From positions 7,907,251 through 7,971,250 of the forward strand of contig NC_034009.1 of the NCBI RefSeq assembly GCF_000346465.2: a stretch of 64,000 nt of DNA, read 5' to 3'. The notes beneath the pieces are model-generated. The model saw nothing but the letters and a program-made list of their open reading frames with translations, had not been told where the DNA came from and made no database searches. The position numbers and the translations under genes are program-made. This DNA comes from Prunus persica (lineage: Eukaryota > Streptophyta > Magnoliopsida > Rosales > Rosaceae). Below are positions 18,271-26,530 of this stretch, piece after piece (the first letter of the stretch is position 1; every line of letters begins with the position of its first letter).

Positions 18271-19396
18271 TAATTAAAAATTTCAAAATTATGAACCAAA
18301 ATAAGAAAGGATACTACTTGTCTCCTTCTTGTAAATCACAATTGAACACGTGTACAAAAAAAAATTCATCAAAAAAAAAAAAAAAACTTCTACATACATG
18401 TCATACTATCATTGGTAAGAATGTAGGAGTTCCTACTTATAGGGGAAAAGATGGAAGTATTTTTGAATGAAAGGATACTGCTCAAATTAAGGTGACAAAA
18501 ATGTAAAGTTACAACAAAGAAAAAAAATCCTAGCCACTCTCTCCGTTTGTGAGTGCCAAAGAAAAACTCCATAGAGGGGAAGCATGAAGAAGCGTCATTG
18601 CCCCTCCTCCCCTCCTTTCTCCTCGCATTTTTCTTTTGGGTTAGTGAATAAGTACATTGAGGCGTTTTGAATAAGAAACCCCCTTTGTGGTGATTTTTTC
18701 TGAGTCATTCTTAGATTGAAGTTCCCCATTACCTATTTTATGCATTCTCAAACAAATCCTTCTCCCAAAACCTGTTCTCTAACATTGCCCATGTTCTCTA
18801 AACTTGGGTCTACATTGTCTTCGACGAAGGTTGCTGCAAATCACTCAATTGTTCTTTGTTAAAGTTGTCGTTTTTGTTTATTTATTCGTATTTATGCGCA
18901 TGTAGATCGTTAGAAACTATGTTTTCCCCAGATTTGTTACGGATGCGATAACGGATGCTTTCAAACGTTAATTACTTAATTATCTTTGTTGGAGTTGTTG
19001 TCCATGTGTTGTTGTCTTATAGGTGCGTACCATCACCTGGCAAGTGCCAAGTGGTAGTGCCGTACTATTGTATAATTTTTCTATGTGGTGTTGGTCGTTT
19101 AGGCTCATGGGTTGTTTTAGGGTTTCAGTTATGTTGGGTATATGAGCTTTGTTTGGACTTATGATTATTTATGGTGATGTGAACTAGTAGTTTTAGTGCG
19201 GCTTTTGTCCGTTATAGTTTTGATTTTAGCATGTTGAAGTTTATCTAATGAAAGTTTATATTTGATGAAATAAAAACGTGACAAAAATGTGATCCAACAG
19301 AAGAAAAGAACTTTTTTATTCTGAAAAAGGAAATCCCTTTCAGCCTGTGCTAAACAATTTGAGCTGGATATATGAAAAAAATAACAATAATAATAA
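18271..19396. other. Spacer before the LTR retrotransposon
   Basis: AT-rich sequence without a convincing gene. The frame at 18955-19164 (+) encodes 69 hydrophobic residues with no family likeness. The last bases before the retrotransposon are AATAA (19392-19396), the left copy of its target duplication. Confidence 0.45.
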
Positions 19397-19577
19397 TGTT
19401 ATAAATCTAAAGGAAATTGTAGAGAGGGAATTGAGATATAGAGAAAGGAATGTTTTCTCTCTATTCATTTCTGTCAATCTTAGTATTCTCAATCTAAACA
19501 TTACAAGGAGGGGTGAACCCTTTTGTAGGTAAAGCTCCTTCCAACAAGTGGTGGGCTCCACCTTATTATTTACAACA
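19397..19577 (-). repeat. 3' LTR (minus orientation), 181 bp
   Basis: Begins TG and ends CA on either strand. It is the partner of 26131-26311 and appears identical to it. AATAA precedes it on the plus strand. The frames at 19340-19666 (-) and 19347-19532 (+) run through it and are not genes. Confidence 0.9.
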
Positions 19578-19593
19578 CTCCCCCTTGGATACC
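19578..19593 (-). other. Polypurine tract of the LTR element
   Basis: Read on the minus strand the sequence is GGTATCCAAGGGGGAG, directly abutting the TGTTGTAAAT start of the LTR. AAGGGGGAG immediately upstream of a TGTTG terminus is the usual plus-strand primer of plant Copia-type elements, and it fixes the element's orientation. Confidence 0.75.
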
Positions 19594-19607
19594 ACAAATG
19601 ATACGGA

Positions 19608-20052
19608 ATATGCCTCGTTAAAAATCTTGCCAGTAAAAACCCAGTGGGACAAAAAAAACTGGTCAAAGGGAAAAAAAGTACATAATCATGTGTAACATAA
19701 AATTCTGTGTATATTGACGCGCGTGCGACACTGCCTCGTTAAAACCTTGCCAGGAAAAAACCCAGTGGGATAAAAACCTGGACGAAGGAAAAAGAGTACA
19801 GTGTTTGAAGATCTTTATTGATAGTACGCTCCCCCTGATGCTTGACAAAATATCTTTAAGCCATACTGTTGATCATCTTTCTGAATATCATAGTTGACAC
19901 TGCTTCTGTGAGTCAATCTTGAGCGACACTGCCTCGTTAAAACCTTACCAGGAAAAACCCAGTGGGATAAAAACCTGGATGAAGGAAAAAGAGTACAGTG
20001 TATGAAGGTCTTTATTAATACCACGCTCCCCCTGATGAATATCTCCCCCTGA
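19608..20052. repeat. Triplicated block next to the 3' LTR
   Basis: Three imperfect copies start at about 19608, 19731 and 19928, each with TGCCTCGTTAAAA, a CTTGCCAG-type phrase, AACCCAGTGGGA and a GTACA end. Copies two and three continue for about 110 bp and both include TCTTTATT and GCTCCCCCTGATG. That last phrase, on the minus strand, resembles the polypurine tract. The second-to-third spacing is about 197 bp. This block is familiar from the region between pol and the 3' LTR of plant Copia elements. Confidence 0.7.
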
Positions 20053-20410
20053 AAACTTCATGACTAGCTTTTCCAGTATGCGACCATAGAAATTTCCAGA
20101 GTCCGCATATCTAATAACACTTGGGCTATTTGTAAGTTCACTCAAAAATATGCCCGTATATGGTGTTATGCTGAGATTGCATCAAATATGCCTCACATCA
20201 TCCCAAAATGATGGTGATGAAGTTGAGCTTTATCTGGAAAATACGATGTACGGTCCAATATACTTCCGGAAAATCCTTAAAGTGTCCAACGGATAATCCT
20301 CATAAAAATGCTTCAATACTTTCTTAGTATAAGCAAAAAAAAAATCTCATTTGGCACAACGCTCGATCGTTAGGTCGAGACAAATATTTCTTGAACTCTT
20401 CAGAAGTTTT

Positions 20411-23400
20411 AATGTGTTGCAAACACATTATAATCCATGTGCTCACTGAGGCAATTTATGCACATTAGTATTGAGTACAGATTTTGTGCTTCAGGCACAT
20501 GTCCTTCAGGGACTTGCTTCATGCAATTTCAATCCTTTCAAGGATTTTGTTTAAAGGGATTAAACTTTATGATACATTATATAGCTTTAACCCTGCTATT
20601 TATACATCTTTTAGGGAATCACTTCTGGTGATATACTCCGTGTATTGAATAACCCTTAAAGATAACATGTTGGTCTCCGTAAATGTGCAATAAAGGGGGG
20701 CACAATTGAATCTGTAAATATGGAGAAAACCCAACATTCCTTGTTTCTGCCAGAAACATTGTGTCATACGAAGTAGGTATATTCCCTTTTATTCCGAACA
20801 CCCAAGTATAACTTTCAGTATTAACAAATTTTGGGGTTCGTACAGTGGGTTTGTTCTTTCACGTTCATTCTCATCTATAATGGAATTACCTCATTCCATT
20901 TTGGCCAATGATATTGTCGACATTTAATAATTGAATGTGGTTCCAATTAATACAGCCCATTGATGATTTGAGTAGCTACTCCAAAACCAAAAATTGTCAT
21001 TCATCAATTCATGATCCCATCATTCTCATTTGCACGTGCATGCATCAATTATAAGCATTTCTTTGCTTTTGGGTACCCAAGCCACTTCATGGGGCTTTTA
21101 TTATGTGAGAATGTGGATTATAACCTCCAATGGAGCGTTATTTTATAGTAGGGCGTGGATAATCTCTATTTAGGGAGTTGGAACATTTAGAACCCATATA
21201 TCTGTCATGCTGCAGGCATGCCACAGATTAATACATACATGTCAATTAATTTCTGGGACTTTAACCCATACAATTTGCTACGCATTAGGCGTGCACAATA
21301 TCAATATTGACATGTCAAAGGATTGTCCTTTTGGGACTTCAATCCATATCATTTGCTACGCAACAGGCGTGCATCATATTGATCACTGCTATGCCCATAT
21401 TCTATTCTTATGGGACTTTAATATGTGCAGTGTATTATCAATGTATCCAATTTGTAATCTGTAAAATTTGCATTAATAATTCATGGATACATACAAGCCA
21501 TTCTTTTGGAACGGACTTATCTCCCCATTTGGTTACCTTTCAAGATAAAATATCAAATAAGTATATAAGCATAAAACAACACAAGTATTGCTTACATCCT
21601 TAGGTGGGAGAAACTTTTCTCAAGTATCATTCAAGCTCATATCGGCCCAGTAAATATAATGTAGCGCTTGATGATCTAGTTATATCCTGCAAGAGCAAAA
21701 ATCATAACTCTTTTGCCTCTGTCAAAACAAATAACCCTCATAATTAGGATCACTTCATGGATTCATTCTTCAGATGTTCATTCTAAAGAAATAAAATCTC
21801 TTATGAACAGAGAGTTATAAAAAGAGAAAAAATACAAAAATAATGTGATATTGATTGAAAGAGAAGGTAAGCAATCAAGGAAGGAAGCTGGTGGGAGCAG
21901 ACAATAAGCTCTCATATCTCCTAGTCTAGAAGGACTTCCGGAGATTAGAGCATAAGATCGCCTTCACAGTTTCCTGATGTAGCGGAAACGTGATCAGGGA
22001 TAGTCTCGCTTCCTGAATGGATGATCAGAGATAGTCTTGCTTCTCGGGCATATTAAGTGCTCACTGATAAGAAAAACAAGTAGATATCGCATCACTAGGT
22101 ATGGAGAAAACTGGATGTCTTCTGCAAAGAAAATTTCATTAGTAACACATTTATACACAAATAAGAGGAATAGGTAGAACCGGTGAATTTCAAATTAACC
22201 ATAGAAAAATTGCGAGATTCTCGGGATACTTTTGAAAAAGTAGCTCCGTGAAATCCGTAAAGCAAGATCGGCTTTGACGAAAATAATACTTGAAAACGCC
22301 GAAAGTGCCGACAAACATTAATGGAGGCCGCGTGAAGTTTTGGAATCTGGAAAAGAAAAAGAGAATATGGGGATCTGAGATAATATTGGGATCCTGGAAA
22401 CTGTAGCCATATTTCCTCCTATAGATATTGCCTTTGCAAAACTTGATTGGAGCAACTGCGTTTCAACTCAACTTCCTTCATTTTCTGAAACTTTAGTTTT
22501 TCTAAGACTTTCTTCTAAACCTTCTTAAAATGGCTTCCTCTTCTTCCTGCCCAAATTATTTCAATTTAAATGATGCTCCCACAACTACCAATGATGCCAA
22601 AGTTTGGCGTCCATCCTTTGTATCCCAAAATCGTCATCTCACAGTTAATGATTCTGTGATGATGAATGATGCTACTGCTGTCATAGTAGCTAGGAATTTC
22701 ATTATTCCAATGGATGAAATGTTGTTGACAGGGAGATCTGAGGAAGAGGCTATTGATGACTCAATGGCTTTTAGCATTCAGAGTGCTGCTTCTGTTTCTA
22801 ACATGGCTGATCGTTTGCGTGCCAGAGCAAACGAGGTTGAGAGGTTAACAACTGAAAATTCGTCCCTCCAAAGAATGCTTCATGAGTCTCAACAGGAGGT
22901 TGAGAAACTTAAAGGAGAGAATAATGCCTTGTTGAAACTGGTGAGTTCATACTCTGTTGATACACTGAGAAGGCTAGACATGCTGCAGGTCTTCAATAAA
23001 AGAATTTTGGGAGACCACGAGAGGCTCATGGCTAAGCTTAAGAGGCGTCGTCCTCTTCCTTCAGAGGCTTCCAGAACATAATGTATTTTTATAGATTTTA
23101 CAGGGCCTGCACCTTCATTGCAGGTGGAAAAAATCTATATGTTGTATGCTTCTTGTCTGTTATAATAATTGCGCACATTCTTAAACTTGCACCTGTGGTT
23201 TTTACATTATTTCAAAATGACGGTTTGAAACCTTGTGCCTTATAGGTTCAAATAACCACATCGACTCTCCCAAATTTCATATTTCAACGTATAGGAGCCC
23301 GGAACTTTTGGCCTGGGCTAAACACAAACTCAGAATTTATTCGCCCTTTTTCAAATGGACATGAAATATGAATTGAGTAAAAGCTACGATAATATCGCAA

Positions 23401-24268
23401 TATAGTAGTGAAGAGCATTAACTACTATATACCCACAACCTCAAATTTGGGATTTCTCATATATTTGAATCCATGTGCTTCCGGCCCAGATATATCAAAA
23501 TATGTGGGGAGCCTCAATTCATCATTTGAGGTTTATATTGATATTATCTATTTCACGGTGTATTCTTAACAACCAGAATTCACAAAATATATTTCTTCCT
23601 TGAGGTGTCGAGTATAACATAATCGAACTTTATTAAATCCATCATTTTCTTATGCCAAAGAAATAGTGGTGTACCACAATTTGCAATAATACCTCAAGGA
23701 TTGTCCATTTAACTGTTGGAACTTTAGGTTCTCAACACTGTTAGGTTTTGAACTTCAGGCCAAAATCACATATTCTCATGGTATGAACATTTTTACAATT
23801 TTCTGTACATATTTCTATACTTCAAGCTCTTACATAATTGTCCATATCTTGAGGAACTTTTGGCATCTCATTTAATTGCTCATCCATGAGTTTAAGGAAC
23901 TGCAGGTTCCCTTTTGGATACAGTGACGGTTTACCCAAAATGGTTAATATTTATGTATACGTCACTATTCATATATCCGGTACTATTCATCAAGTCATGA
24001 ATACGTATCTATTCATGTGGACAGTACATTTGCCAGTACAGTTATCATCCATGTGTACGGCACTATGAACCAATACGGTACTGTTACATCATTAAAGAAC
24101 CCCAGGTCCTTATTCACATGTCAAGGATCAAGGACCCTTAAGTCCAATCACATGTTTACAAATATAGTACCGGAGAGACTGCCAGCTCTCATATTAATAT
24201 CATCATCAAGGATCTTCAAGTCCTGATGTAATTGTATGATGAGGATCAAGGAACTTCTGGTCCTGATC
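20411..24268. repeat. Series of short hairpins, many with five-base loops ending in G
   Basis: Short perfect inverted repeats recur through the element's interior. Coordinates, arms and loops: 20411-20429 (AATGTGTT, GCA), 20485-20499 (TGTGC, TTCAG), 20501-20513 (GTCC, TTCAG), 20531-20546 (AATCCT, TTCA), 20549-20565 (GTTTAA, AGGGA), 20618-20632 (ATCAC, TTCTG), 20743-20757 (GTTTCT, GCC), 20881-20898 (TGGAAT, TACCTC), 21206-21220 (CATGC, TGCAG), 21280-21292 (ACGC, ATTAG), 21325-21337 (GTCC, TTTTG), 21358-21370 (ACGC, AACAG), 23715-23736 (GTTG-GAAC, TTTAG), 23896-23910 (GGAAC, TGCAG), plus two longer bulged ones at 24205-24227 and 24244-24268. The arms differ from copy to copy while complementarity is kept. 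No function is known to me. Confidence 0.6.
22530..23081 (+). CDS. Retrotransposon-associated ORF, 183 aa, unknown function, antisense to the element
   Basis: Uninterrupted frame from ATG to TAA. The N-terminal part (MASSSSCPNYFNLNDAP, then NDAKVWRPSFVSQNR) has the character of a family I recall scattered through plant genomes and annotated as uncharacterised or retrotransposon-related; I cannot name a domain. Residues about 92-140 (NMADRLRARANEVERL onward) form a heptad-like, Leu/Glu-rich coiled coil, and the C-terminus is basic (KLKRRRPLP). Coiled-coil plus basic tail could suit a Gag-like or nucleic-acid-binding role, but this is inference. It lies on the plus strand while primer and polypurine signals make the host element minus-strand, so expression would need an internal promoter. 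A short hairpin (CCTGCA...TGCAGG, 23105-23123) follows the stop. Confidence 0.6.
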   Translation: MASSSSCPNYFNLNDAPTTTNDAKVWRPSFVSQNRHLTVNDSVMMNDATAVIVARNFIIPMDEMLLTGRSEEEAIDDSMAFSIQSAASVSNMADRLRARANEVERLTTENSSLQRMLHESQQEVEKLKGENNALLKLVSSYSVDTLRRLDMLQVFNKRILGDHERLMAKLKRRRPLPSEASRT

Positions 24269-24381
24269 TGCATACTATAAAAACTCATCATACAGCACAA
24301 TTAATCCATAAACTAAATTGCTGGTAAATAAATTACTGGTATGGACGATAAACCCGCACCATACTTTAAATAAAATTAAAT

Positions 24382-24645
24382 GTGCAGTAAATTAAATTCA
24401 TAAAGTATGAGGGTTAATTCCACATAATACTTTAAGTAAAAGTAAATTTGCGATAAATTAAAGGTGCTTGTATGGGCACTAATTTTGCTCTATACATTTA
24501 AATAAAATTCAATGTGCGGTAAATTAAATTCATAAAGTATGAGGGTTAATTCCACATCATACTTTAAGTAAAAGTAAATTTGCGATAAATTAAAGGTGCT
24601 TGTATGGGCACTAATTTTGCTCCATACATTTAAATAAAAGTAAAG
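24382..24645. repeat. Tandem duplication, two 132-bp units
   Basis: Units 24382-24513 and 24514-24645 are nearly identical. Both carry AAAGTATGAGGGTTAATTCC and GTGCTTGTATGGGCACTAAT, with a few substitutions (for example ACATAATAC against ACATCATAC). Shorter related phrases (GATAAACCCGCACCA) flank the pair at about 24349 and 24654. Confidence 0.85.
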
Positions 24646-24891
24646 GCGTGGACGATAAACCCGCACCACCCTTTTAAATAAATACTGTTGTATGGGTAAT
24701 AAACTTACACCATACAGTAAATAAAATAAATGTGGGAATAAAAACCACCACTGAATAAGATAAGAAAAGTGTTAGTATTACTAATGGTCTCCCACTGATA
24801 ATATATTTAGTATTACCAAGGGTCCATTTTGTTAAAGGTTAGTAATAGAATGGCAGATAAATATAGTATATTATATTACCATCAACTTTTC

Positions 24892-24914
24892 ATATATATA
24901 TATATATATATATA
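24892..24914. repeat. (TA)n microsatellite
   Basis: About eleven TA units inside the LTR retrotransposon. Confidence 0.9.
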
Positions 24915-25122
24915 TTATAGAAGCATGGTCATCTGCAACTTAGTGCTAATTTGCTGTAAGGTATCACGCTTGTCACTGTGTTTTCATTTGACCTGCCATT
25001 AGCACATGCATTAATATTAATATTAAATAATATAGAATAATAATAATTGAAAAGATGGTGGGAAGCTCATCATTTCGGTGGGTGCTTTTCTTTATCGGTG
25101 GGTGCTGCTCATCATTTCGGTC

Positions 25123-25683
25123 GTTAGCTTTGTTTCCTTGGTGGACACGAGCAACAAAAGCTGGAATGTAATGTCCAGCATATGATTCTCCAGTTATGTA
25201 AAAGTCATTCTTTGCCAACTCAGGATGCTCAGCAAAGAAGGCAGAAGGTTAGATGCCTTATCCCAACCATACTCGTTCCACACCAGGGATAAGTTATTTG
25301 CGATATTGAAAGGACCATTTTCTTAAAATACAGCCAATTCACTGCTGCACCCTGGGCCTCCAGTCAACCATATAACAACAGGGTCCTTATTGTTTGTGCG
25401 AGACTCGAAGAAAAGGTAGAATATCCTTGCGGCATGAGAATGTTCGATCTTAAAGTAGCCGGCATGGTGGCCGAGGTCCTCGACGGAGACTCCTGAGCCG
25501 ACGAGGTTGGGGAGATTGAAGCGCTTCTCGACGAGCCTCGGCGAATCGTGGAAGATCGAGGAATCAGGGCCGTCGATGATGTTGATATCTTCCTTGGGGA
25601 AGAGATTGAAGGCTCTGATGAGCTCCTGCGCGTGTACGGACGGGAAGCTGGACCTGGCGAGGCTCAGAGGGTTCGTGAGCTTT
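25123..25683 (-). pseudogene. Captured serine carboxypeptidase-like (SCPL) gene fragment
   Basis: Read on the minus strand from 25683, the sequence gives a plant serine carboxypeptidase without its N- and C-terminal parts. It has a propeptide-like stretch ([15 protein letters not shown]), then [20 protein letters not shown], the oxyanion-hole region [27 protein letters not shown], and the nucleophile motif [12 protein letters not shown]. It is broken in three ways: an in-frame TAA directly after SELAVF (normally Tyr there), a deletion plus frameshift between DKASNL and [15 protein letters not shown] that removes the usual VDQPTGTGFSY segment, and loss of all sequence after QGNKAN, including the catalytic Asp and His regions. 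No intron is visible, which would fit capture of a spliced transcript. It lies near the primer-site end of the LTR element, in the element's sense direction. Confidence 0.82.
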
Positions 25684-26110
25684 GATGACTAACATAGGCC
25701 TTGGCAAGCTCAAGAGGTCTCAGCTGGGCTCGTCGGAATTGCTACCAGTTCCGATCGGTGAAACCAGTTTTTCCGGCTGCTGCCTGAGGTTCCGGCTTTC
25801 TAGCTTCTGAATTTTTCTGGTCAAACTTAGCTGGATTGGATTATCAAGATCCCCTCCTCCACAACCTCAACTACTCTCACACCCCGAAGACGCAGTCCTC
25901 CATACATTGGACGGCTCATGGGTTGAGACTGGCGAGAGTTTTAACAGACAAATACCAACTAATGTGTTTTGTGTTTTTGTTTGGCTCTGTCCTGGGGTTT
26001 TCTAGAGAGAGGTTAGAAGGCCTCTCTGACTCTTCAAAAGATGGGATTTTGAGAGAGAGACAGAGGGGATTTTGGTGTGGGAAGTTGAAACTCCTTGGAC
26101 TTGTATGGTT

Positions 26111-26130
26111 AGAGCTTCGTGCTGATAACG
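26111..26130 (-). other. Primer-binding-site-like sequence of the LTR element
   Basis: On the minus strand CGTTATCAGCACGAAGCTCT directly follows the ACA end of the LTR. This ATCAGCACGA phrase is one I associate with the primer site of many plant Copia-type elements; I cannot name the tRNA with confidence. Confidence 0.55.
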
Positions 26131-26311
26131 TGTTATAAATCTAAAGGAAATTGTAGAGAGGGAATTGAGATATAGAGAAAGGAATGTTTTCTCTCTATTC
26201 ATTTCTGTCAATCTTAGTATTCTCAATCTAAACATTACAAGGAGGGGTGAACCCTTTTGTAGGTAAAGCTCCTTCCAACAAGTGGTGGGCTCCACCTTAT
26301 TATTTACAACA
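26131..26311 (-). repeat. 5' LTR (minus orientation), 181 bp
   Basis: Appears identical to 19397-19577 and is followed by the AATAA target duplication at 26312-26316. Its outer end lies 219 bp before the ATG of the 5'-nucleotidase gene. Confidence 0.9.
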
Positions 26312-26530
26312 AATAATAATAATTTGAGCTGGATTTGCTGAAGGTCTAATGTTAAAATGGCGGCCACCAGGTACTGGCGGTCCTTGATTTTCGCATAGCT
26401 AGAAAGAAATCATCATTTCTTTGCAATCTCCTTCCTACTTGGGCTTTCATTTCAATTCCATTTTCTACAACAGAGAATGAAAAAATAAAATCCCTAACTT
26501 CGAATGCAGAGCTAAAATCCCTCTCTTCCC

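Follow-up and report, generated by a model that had tools for sequence, protein, structure and literature searches.

Within the 64,000-nucleotide stretch of Prunus persica DNA analysed here (the window, to which all positions refer), a retroelement carries short hairpins whose arms differ from one to the next around similar five-base loops. Does selection preserve the fold of these hairpins? The series reported by the first-pass annotation was confirmed. The arms covary around loops that resemble one another. This suggests a folded shape, probably of RNA, that selection preserves, and we consider it likely that selection acts on the hairpin structure. The reading we favour, held at roughly even odds (about 0.5, jointly with the class of the host element given below), is that these are dispersed, partly duplicated cis-acting RNA hairpins kept for their fold, perhaps as packaging signals.

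The host is a putative non-autonomous LTR retrotransposon

In the favoured reading, the hairpins sit in a minus-strand, non-autonomous LTR retrotransposon of 6.9 kb, probably of the Ty1/copia type, with a Bianca-type primer binding site (PBS). Its landmarks are:

19397..19577, minus strand: 3' LTR (in sense orientation), TGTT..AACA, identical to the other LTR over 181 bp
26131..26311, minus strand: 5' LTR (in sense orientation), pair identity 181/181
19392..19396 (left) and 26312-26316 (right), no strand: target site duplication AATAA flanking the LTRs
19578..19588, minus strand: polypurine tract (PPT), reading CCAAGGGGGAG on the minus strand
26107..26130, minus strand: PBS, with complement GGTTAGAGCTTCGTGCTGATAACG

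The features of a LARD-type element were thus found, namely near-identical LTRs with TG..CA ends, a target site duplication, and a PBS and PPT adjoining the LTRs. No gag-pol frame was detected among the 37 stop-to-stop frames of at least 60 aa overlapping the element, the longest of which is antisense (191 aa), and no retroelement Pfam family matched the antisense ORF or 10 other frames of at least 60 aa. The interior also holds a captured gene fragment.

The PBS complement agrees with GGTTAGAGCGTCGTGCTAATAACG at 22 of 24 bases. This sequence, found at 18 or more genomic places, is presumably the 5' half of tRNA-Ile(AAU), and one of the two mismatches is an A to G change at the tRNA base that is edited to inosine. 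The PBS of the Ty1/copia element Bianca is described as pairing with the 5' half of tRNA-Ile, with inosine as the first anticodon base (PMC6317226); the half tRNA-Ile and the inosine position both recur here, the lineage being judged from the PBS in an element that has no pol. In the hunt for an autonomous partner, none of the 21 RVT_2 matches listed (C1 below 23.9 Mb) had a listed exact copy of the PBS 15-mer within 6 kb upstream on the same strand; one of those listed had it 3.4 kb downstream.

Mini-hairpins exceed chance in region A

All nine hairpins named in the annotation (loops TTCAG and TGCAG twice each, TTCTG, ATTAG, TTTTG, AACAG and TTTAG) were found. The catalogue, given without strand, is as follows:

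20485..20499: mini-hairpin TGTGC-TTCAG-GCACA, copies aligned
20501..20513: mini-hairpin GTCC-TTCAG-GGAC
20514..20526: mini-hairpin TTGC-TTCAT-GCAA
20618..20632: mini-hairpin ATCAC-TTCTG-GTGAT
20633..20645: mini-hairpin ATAC-TCCGT-GTAT
21206..21220: mini-hairpin CATGC-TGCAG-GCATG
21280..21292: mini-hairpin ACGC-ATTAG-GCGT, in the first copy of a 51-nt duplicated block
21325..21337: mini-hairpin GTCC-TTTTG-GGAC
21358..21370: mini-hairpin ACGC-AACAG-GCGT, in the second copy of the 51-nt block
21498..21514: single hairpin CCATTC-TTTTG-GAACGG with one non-Watson-Crick pair, where 21 relatives have a four-hairpin array
23719..23731: mini-hairpin GAAC-TTTAG-GTTC
23746..23765: imperfect hairpin TTTTGAAC-TTCAG-GCCAAAA, two pairs being G-U on the minus strand only
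23896..23910: mini-hairpin GGAAC-TGCAG-GTTCC
24095..24111: imperfect hairpin AAGAAC-CCCAG-GTCCTT
24132..24145: mini-hairpin GGAC-CCTTAA-GTCC, inside a 22-nt repeat present three times
24244..24268: bulged hairpin GATCAAGGAAC-TTCTG-GTCCTGATC

We counted perfect hairpins with a five-base loop and a stem of at least 4 bp, omitting loops whose own ends could pair. There were 15 across the two stretches, with 12 in region A (20411-21370) and 3 in region B (23715-24268; two overlap). None of 200 dinucleotide shuffles of region A was as high for all hairpins (12 against 3.8 expected), for G-ending loops (7 against 0.6) or for AG-ending loops (5 against 0.10). Nor were these counts equalled outside the element, where overlapping windows of 960 bases at 230 positions, read on both strands (460 in all), reached at most 11, 4 and 2. 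These figures, and those for region B, are flattering because the region limits and the loop class had been picked post hoc in the annotation. Region B was weak against its shuffles, with 3 hairpins in all against 2.1 expected (66/200 as high) and 3 G-ending loops against 0.4 (2/200). In mid-element, at 21371-23714, the count was at chance (12 against 9.1 expected, 42/200 as high). An Rfam search gave two matches, both under the family cut-offs, and RNA folding z-scores were modest, with no clear strand preference.

Arms match their own partners

A G at the loop end, noted in the annotation for nine of the hairpins, is not conserved: at position 20494, 38 of the 66 copies aligned have A. We therefore dropped it as the defining mark of the series. 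A better rule came from a related family: the loop reads TTCNN on the plus strand (NNGAA in the sense direction) and is closed by a C-G pair. In an arm-swap test of 33 C[TTCNN]G sites, 22 in the element and 11 in L074 (two families 60-65% identical), own arms formed 1.88 of 4 pairs against 1.12 for swapped arms, with 0 of 5000 permutations as extreme. For the nine element sites within regions A and B, the values were 2.33 and 1.00 (0/5000). The 13 element sites beyond these regions gave no signal (1.08 against 1.05, 2646/5000), nor was there any outside the element, at 104 sites of the window (0.98 against 1.03, 746/1000), and a G[N5]C control was negative. Genome-wide, the pattern CNTTCAGG was not commoner than its reversed control.

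C[TTCNN]G was also biased to the plus strand, with 22 against 5 occurrences in the element and 11 against 0 in L074, as compared with 52 against 52 in the rest of the window. This bias bears on a mutational origin, in which reverse transcription itself, by template switching or quasi-palindrome correction, would turn one arm into a copy of the other and selection would play no part. Such copying would fit the covarying arms inside single units and the tandem duplications common in the element, but it predicts neither a loop motif shared on one strand nor hairpins confined to blocks, and we regard it as improbable.

Arm changes among copies and relatives

The annotation had also claimed that arms change while pairing is kept. 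The arm-swap permutations, tandem units in relatives and hairpin units in the tail beside the PPT support this, and a few stem pairs are compensated between copies of the element. In the close family uncompensated changes occur as well, as expected of dead copies. Among 65 copies, the pair 20621/20629 (hairpin 20618..20632) is G-C in 50 and A-T in 10, and the pair 20635/20643 (hairpin 20633..20645) is G-C in 56, A-T in 2, A.C in 4 and G.T in 2. Across 66 aligned copies, variability did not differ significantly between stem and other columns (0.0415 against 0.0522), and common variants fell in 13 of 106 stem columns against 106 of 791 others (p=0.88) and in 13 of 60 loop columns (p=0.12). A blind scan for linked double substitutions in 67 aligned sequences found no Watson-Crick excess nearby (at r2 of at least 0.7, 12/66 within 30 nt against 8/44 at 31-60 nt), lineage effects dominating.

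One of 20 long copies (L016) lacks region A, and no region A match was found in L030, a 2-kb piece. A diverged short family of 3 kb was read in a single copy, L074. Its PPT and PBS core are as in the element, but it contains hairpin blocks of its own, lacks any ORF longer than 106 aa, and at hairpin 21206..21220 keeps the same arms around the loop TTCAG.

The tail units, again without strand, are:

19629..19664: tail unit 1, GCCAGT / ACTGGTC around CCC-AGT-GGG
19749..19783: tail unit 2, GCCAGG / CCTGGAC
19947..19980: tail unit 3, ACCAGG / CCTGGAT

They occur in three main arm versions, and 49 of 65 parsed units pair fully; none of 5000 permutations over the 18 distinct versions did as well. 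In the array of four tandem hairpins found in 21 relatives, A-T and G-C pairs alternate between units. Percent paired, both-sides-changed cells (36 against 14.9) and the covariation score exceeded all 500 shuffles, and two of the five measures lay within the shuffle range (220/500 and 61/500 as high); one slid register equalled the true register in covariation score.

Templated duplication had been offered beside selection as a source of such a series, and part of it is indeed duplication, of an ordinary kind: the 51-nt repeat (two copies) and 22-nt repeat (three copies) in the window, and the four-unit array in relatives. Ordinary tandem repeats that have degenerated from a single ancestral hairpin, their pairing surviving only because too little time has elapsed, would account for these and for stems not clearly better conserved than their flanks. 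Drift, however, would break pairs and not exchange them, as the array alternation and the tail arm versions do, and the excess of own over swapped pairing extends across both families; this origin is therefore rather unlikely.

The array units contain TTCnnGAA, which we take to resemble a heat-shock element, and inverted repeats with five-base spacers might be DNA sites of dyad symmetry to which a transcription factor binds. A protein site, however, would fix the arms and free the spacer, whereas here the arms vary and the loop letters recur, and the other hairpins, judged by eye, mostly lack TTCnnGAA. We consider such sites very improbable.

The folding strand and the antisense ORF

The wobble evidence on which strand folds, and hence on RNA or DNA, is mixed. 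In 28 hairpins picked by hand, plus-type and minus-type wobble cells were even (227 and 219), and distinct states shared by at least three copies leaned to minus (31 against 17, p=0.06). The plus strand is of interest for one further feature:

22530..23081, plus strand: antisense ORF, 183 aa, coiled-coil-like, with no Pfam family above cut-off

Relatives of this ORF occur in Prunus, with one in Actinidia. Rough dN/dS was 0.16-0.68 in all 19 copies with at least 500 bp aligned, two of which contain a stop, and the ORF looks to be under purifying selection. The hairpins might accordingly act in its plus-strand transcript, for example in long untranslated parts, and not in genomic RNA. Folding z-scores are lower on the plus strand in four of five region A windows, and array units 1-3 gain an extra G-U pair on that strand only, both consistent with such a role. 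Against it, the wobble cells are even and the shared states lean to minus, as given above; several hairpins of L074 and the window gain G-U pairs on the minus strand only; and L074 bears hairpins yet, in the copy read, lacks the ORF. We judge the antisense role unlikely, if less so than the alternatives above.

A possible role for the hairpins

The favoured reading, of cis-acting RNA hairpins, starts from what was observed: hairpins in excess of chance, arms that depend on their own partners, compensated arm changes in tandem and tail units, and hairpin blocks in the one copy read of an ORF-less 3-kb relative. Beyond the ORF and the gene fragment, the element interior is probably mostly cis-acting sequence. 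Its stem-loops would have 4-7 bp, a C-G closing pair and a loop that in sense orientation reads NNGAA or something close to it, and would most likely be repeated protein-binding sites on the element RNA. The favoured binder would be the Gag/nucleocapsid of an autonomous element supplying the machinery, with many weak sites jointly securing packaging. Packaging specifically is a possible but doubtful role, and it is more doubtful still that a retrotransposon parasite captures its partner's particle through duplicated, compensated hairpins resembling packaging signals.

To our knowledge, how non-autonomous LTR elements recruit partner proteins is poorly understood. The hairpins are candidates for a signal that serves packaging, export or dimerisation, and a high-copy family with arm covariation and a recurring loop in its non-coding interior offers concrete RNA sites for probing.

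Comparison with known systems

Among the papers listed by literature searches, none was seen to describe a series of covarying mini-hairpins in LTR elements. With LARD and TRIM elements, which are non-autonomous, the element shares LTRs, a target site duplication, a PBS and a PPT, with no gag-pol found, and with Bianca a half tRNA-Ile PBS (PMC6317226). The Rosaceae TGTT and AACA families and AACA TRIMs are described as Copia type, Ale lineage, with LTRs of 152-266 bp (PMC5659011), and they include TRIMs without coding sequence that are comparable to the element. We rejected these families as its home: their ends are TG..TT or AA..CA, whereas those of the element are TGTT..AACA (TG..CA), and its PBS is of the half tRNA-Ile type. 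The main text of PMC5659011 nowhere uses the word "hairpin".

Grande, RIRE2, Retand and PvRetro13 are plant LTR retrotransposons with additional antisense ORFs, lying, as here, toward the 3' LTR (PMC7264820). The present element differs in having no detected gag-pol and an ORF that not all copies carry.

In hairpin arrangement the element resembles RNA viruses described as having multiple dispersed packaging signals, among them MS2 (PMC6281560) and STNV. Dispersed stem-loops with a common motif are likewise predicted from the sequence of the element, and in both cases many small stem-loops present a common recognition feature in varying surroundings. These viruses are a different kind of element, and the likeness to our predicted hairpins is an analogy; if it holds, an LTR retrotransposon would carry a virus-like, multi-site packaging code.

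Structure and copy number of the element

The hairpin series lies within an LTR element whose two LTRs, 181 bp each, are identical to each other and have the ends TGTT..AACA; AATAA flanks the element on either side. A polypurine tract (PPT) just inside the left LTR and a primer binding site (PBS) just inside the right LTR are both on the minus strand, and the sense strand of the element is therefore the minus strand. The features were as follows.

19397-26311, sense on the minus strand: LTR element containing the hairpins
26107-26130: PBS, matching the 5' half of tRNA-Ile but carrying G at the position of A34 in the tRNA gene
24976-25688, minus strand (element sense): serine carboxypeptidase gene fragment (PF00450), in two frames
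22530-23081, plus strand: antisense ORF of 183 aa, related to proteins of Prunus and Actinidia

Compared with a 24-mer found at 18 listed genomic places, which we take to be the 5' half of tRNA-Ile(AAU), the PBS complement has 2 of 24 positions changed, one of them from A to G in the first base of the anticodon. A34 of the tRNA gene is inosine in the mature tRNA, and the G in the PBS looks like a copy of this edited base. Half-tRNA-Ile binding sites with A edited to inosine are reported for the Bianca lineage of Ty1/copia in a published survey (PMC6317226).

Gag-pol was not found: the longest of the 37 stop-to-stop frames of at least 60 aa overlapping the element is antisense (191 aa), and Pfam detected no retroelement family in this ORF or in 10 other frames. 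Two sense frames matched serine carboxypeptidase (E 8e-15 and 4e-16); this stretch is a captured gene fragment. The element is high-copy: scoring the best of 608 candidates gave 40 near full-length matches that are 95-100% identical, plus a single piece of 170 bases with 85% identity, and its 3' repeat, which frequently occurs two or three times per copy, has 416 + 451 genomic matches with up to 2 mismatches allowed. Degenerate tandem repeats of 47 and 132 nt occupy 24330-24740, after the second hairpin block (23715-24268) and on the way to the PBS side, and the folding z-score in 24520-24759 is about -4.7 on both strands. In L030, a copy represented by a 2-kb piece, a stretch that seems by eye to be a fragment of a sulfate-transporter gene comes after the tail, and beyond it lies element sequence in inverted orientation.

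Hairpins are in local excess

All nine hairpins with five-base loops ending in G that the first-pass annotation had named are present. When hairpins with a five-base loop and a stem of at least 4 bp were counted against 200 shuffles, the excess was clear in 20411-21370 (region A; 12 vs 3.8, 0/200) and weak in 23715-24268 (region B; 3 vs 2.1, 66/200). None of 460 windows outside the element reached the counts of region A, and the middle of the element was at chance level (12 vs 9.1, 42/200). The excess is thus local within the element. Weighing against a kept structure, region A is missing from one of 20 long copies (L016), and no match to it was found in L030.

Arms vary together with their partners

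A diverged, shorter family was sampled as one copy, L074, read from LTR to LTR except that its left LTR is truncated at the end of the retrieved sequence. Its PPT and PBS core are the same as those of the element, its interior between the LTRs is ~2.7 kb, and it holds no ORF longer than 106 aa. Identity was 65% to 20742-21251 of the window (572 columns) and 60% to a majority row (901 columns). L074 has its own series of GAAC-TTCNN-GTTC hairpins, and CATGC-TTCAG-GCATG where the window has CATGC-TGCAG-GCATG. The variant-tail pattern of this family gave 49 + 64 matches, a few of which belong, by their letters, to the first family.

We scored the four pairs adjoining the closing pair at every plus-strand C[TTCNN]G, with own or swapped partners; the motif was picked after L074 was seen, though not on the basis of arms. 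Own partners paired better across the 22 element and 11 L074 sites together (33 in all; 1.88 vs 1.12, 0/5000 permutations) and at the nine sites in regions A and B (2.33 vs 1.00, 0/5000). The remaining 13 element sites (1.08 vs 1.05, 2646/5000) and the 104 that lie elsewhere in the window (0.98 vs 1.03, 746/1000) gave no such difference, and the control motif G[N5]C was negative. Broader motifs gave similar but weaker results; with four-base arms, C[NNNNG]G and C[N5]G also showed a slight excess in sequence outside the element (15 and 26/1000), but not with three-base arms (109 and 196/1000).

Where the window has one imperfect hairpin (21498-21514), 21 copies belonging to a related subfamily have four in tandem, their loops being TTCTG or near variants of it. 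The array is present in all 21 because 20 were fetched by similarity to that of the related copy L041 (20 of 39 other matches); pairing was not so selected. One pair is mostly A-T in units 1 and 3 and mostly G-C in units 2 and 4. Own arms formed 4.94 of 6 pairs, vs 4.22 with arms from other units of the same copy. Across 84 units (65 distinct) and 500 shuffles, pairing cells (87.7% vs 83.8%), cells changed on both sides (36 vs 14.9) and the covariation score (0.257 vs 0.178) were never equalled; pairs with double-sided change (3 vs 2.4, 220/500) and pair types (10 vs 8.5, 61/500) were not exceptional. Slid registers paired less (57.2% at most), though register +3 had a comparable covariation score (0.273). 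Most hairpins of the array in L041:336-443 (minus strand) and relatives contain TTCTGGAA, which resembles a heat-shock element.

Three pairs vary between copies: 20621/20629 (G-C 50/65, A-T 10/65), 20635/20643 (G-C 56/65, A-T 2/65) and 21167/21174 (C-G 39/66, T-A 13/66, T-G 12/66). Each of these compensations may be one or two events.

Repeats adjoining the PPT form a further hairpin (tip CCC-AGT-GGG, three units in the window). We parsed 65 of 67 candidate matches; of the other two, one was spurious and one a true unit missed by the parser. The main arm versions, ACCAGG/CCTGGAT (19), GCCAGT/ACTGGTC (16) and GCCAGG/CCTGGAC (14), pair along their whole length apart from a single bulged base on the 3' side; L074 has GCTTGG/CCAAAGC and GCTAGA/CCTAGTC, with one mismatch each in this register. 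When the 18 distinct versions had their 3' arms permuted, the observed value was reached in 0/5000 trials, a figure that is no strict probability since the versions are related.

Results against kept structure, and the strand

When linked double substitutions were scanned blind, their Watson-Crick share was equal near and far. In 66 aligned copies, variability of stem columns (0.0415) was not significantly lower than that of flanking (0.0522) or loop columns (0.0724, p=0.12). The idea of changing arms with kept pairing is supported by the swap test, the array and the tail hairpin, and not by the blind scan or stem conservation.

RNA folding z-scores over the hairpin regions are modest. Five 240-base windows over 20200-21399 gave -2.38, -2.71, -1.30, -0.86 and -2.48 (plus) and -0.96, -1.11, -0.15, -1.67 and -0.72 (minus); three over 23560-24279 gave -1.75, -1.79 and -1.58 (plus) and -0.60, -2.94 and -0.53 (minus). 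Background means in 72 windows were -0.29 (plus) and -0.12 (minus), with minima of -4.32 and -3.13. Wobble cells in 28 hairpins chosen by hand were 227 plus-type and 219 minus-type; distinct wobble states in at least 3 copies (17 plus-type, 31 minus-type) lean weakly to the sense strand. The motif C[TTCNN]G is biased to the plus strand in the element (22 vs 5) and L074 (11 vs 0), and not outside (52 vs 52).

The 183-aa antisense ORF has 49 protein-database relatives; those with a species name are all from Prunus except one from Actinidia rufa, and the others are metagenomic or unnamed. With a Prunus relative as genome query, 12 of the 150 candidates scored (of 633) held a stop. Rough dN/dS against the window was 0.16-0.68 in all 19 copies with at least 500 bp aligned, including two interrupted by a stop; the ORF is largely deleted in some copies (e.g. 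L010, L018, L019 and L028). Judging from these relatives and dN/dS values, plus-strand transcripts probably exist, which leaves room for the hairpins possibly working in antisense transcripts.

Hairpins as putative RNA-binding sites

Selection on hairpin structure is supported, and we infer a binding partner, acting strand and function. Repeated RNA-binding sites fit the series best because the arms vary with kept pairing, the loop recurs, the interior is non-coding and the element depends on foreign proteins. A literature search of partial coverage gave no account of such a hairpin series in any plant LTR element. The dispersed packaging signals of RNA viruses provide the closest working analogy to this series (PMC6281560).
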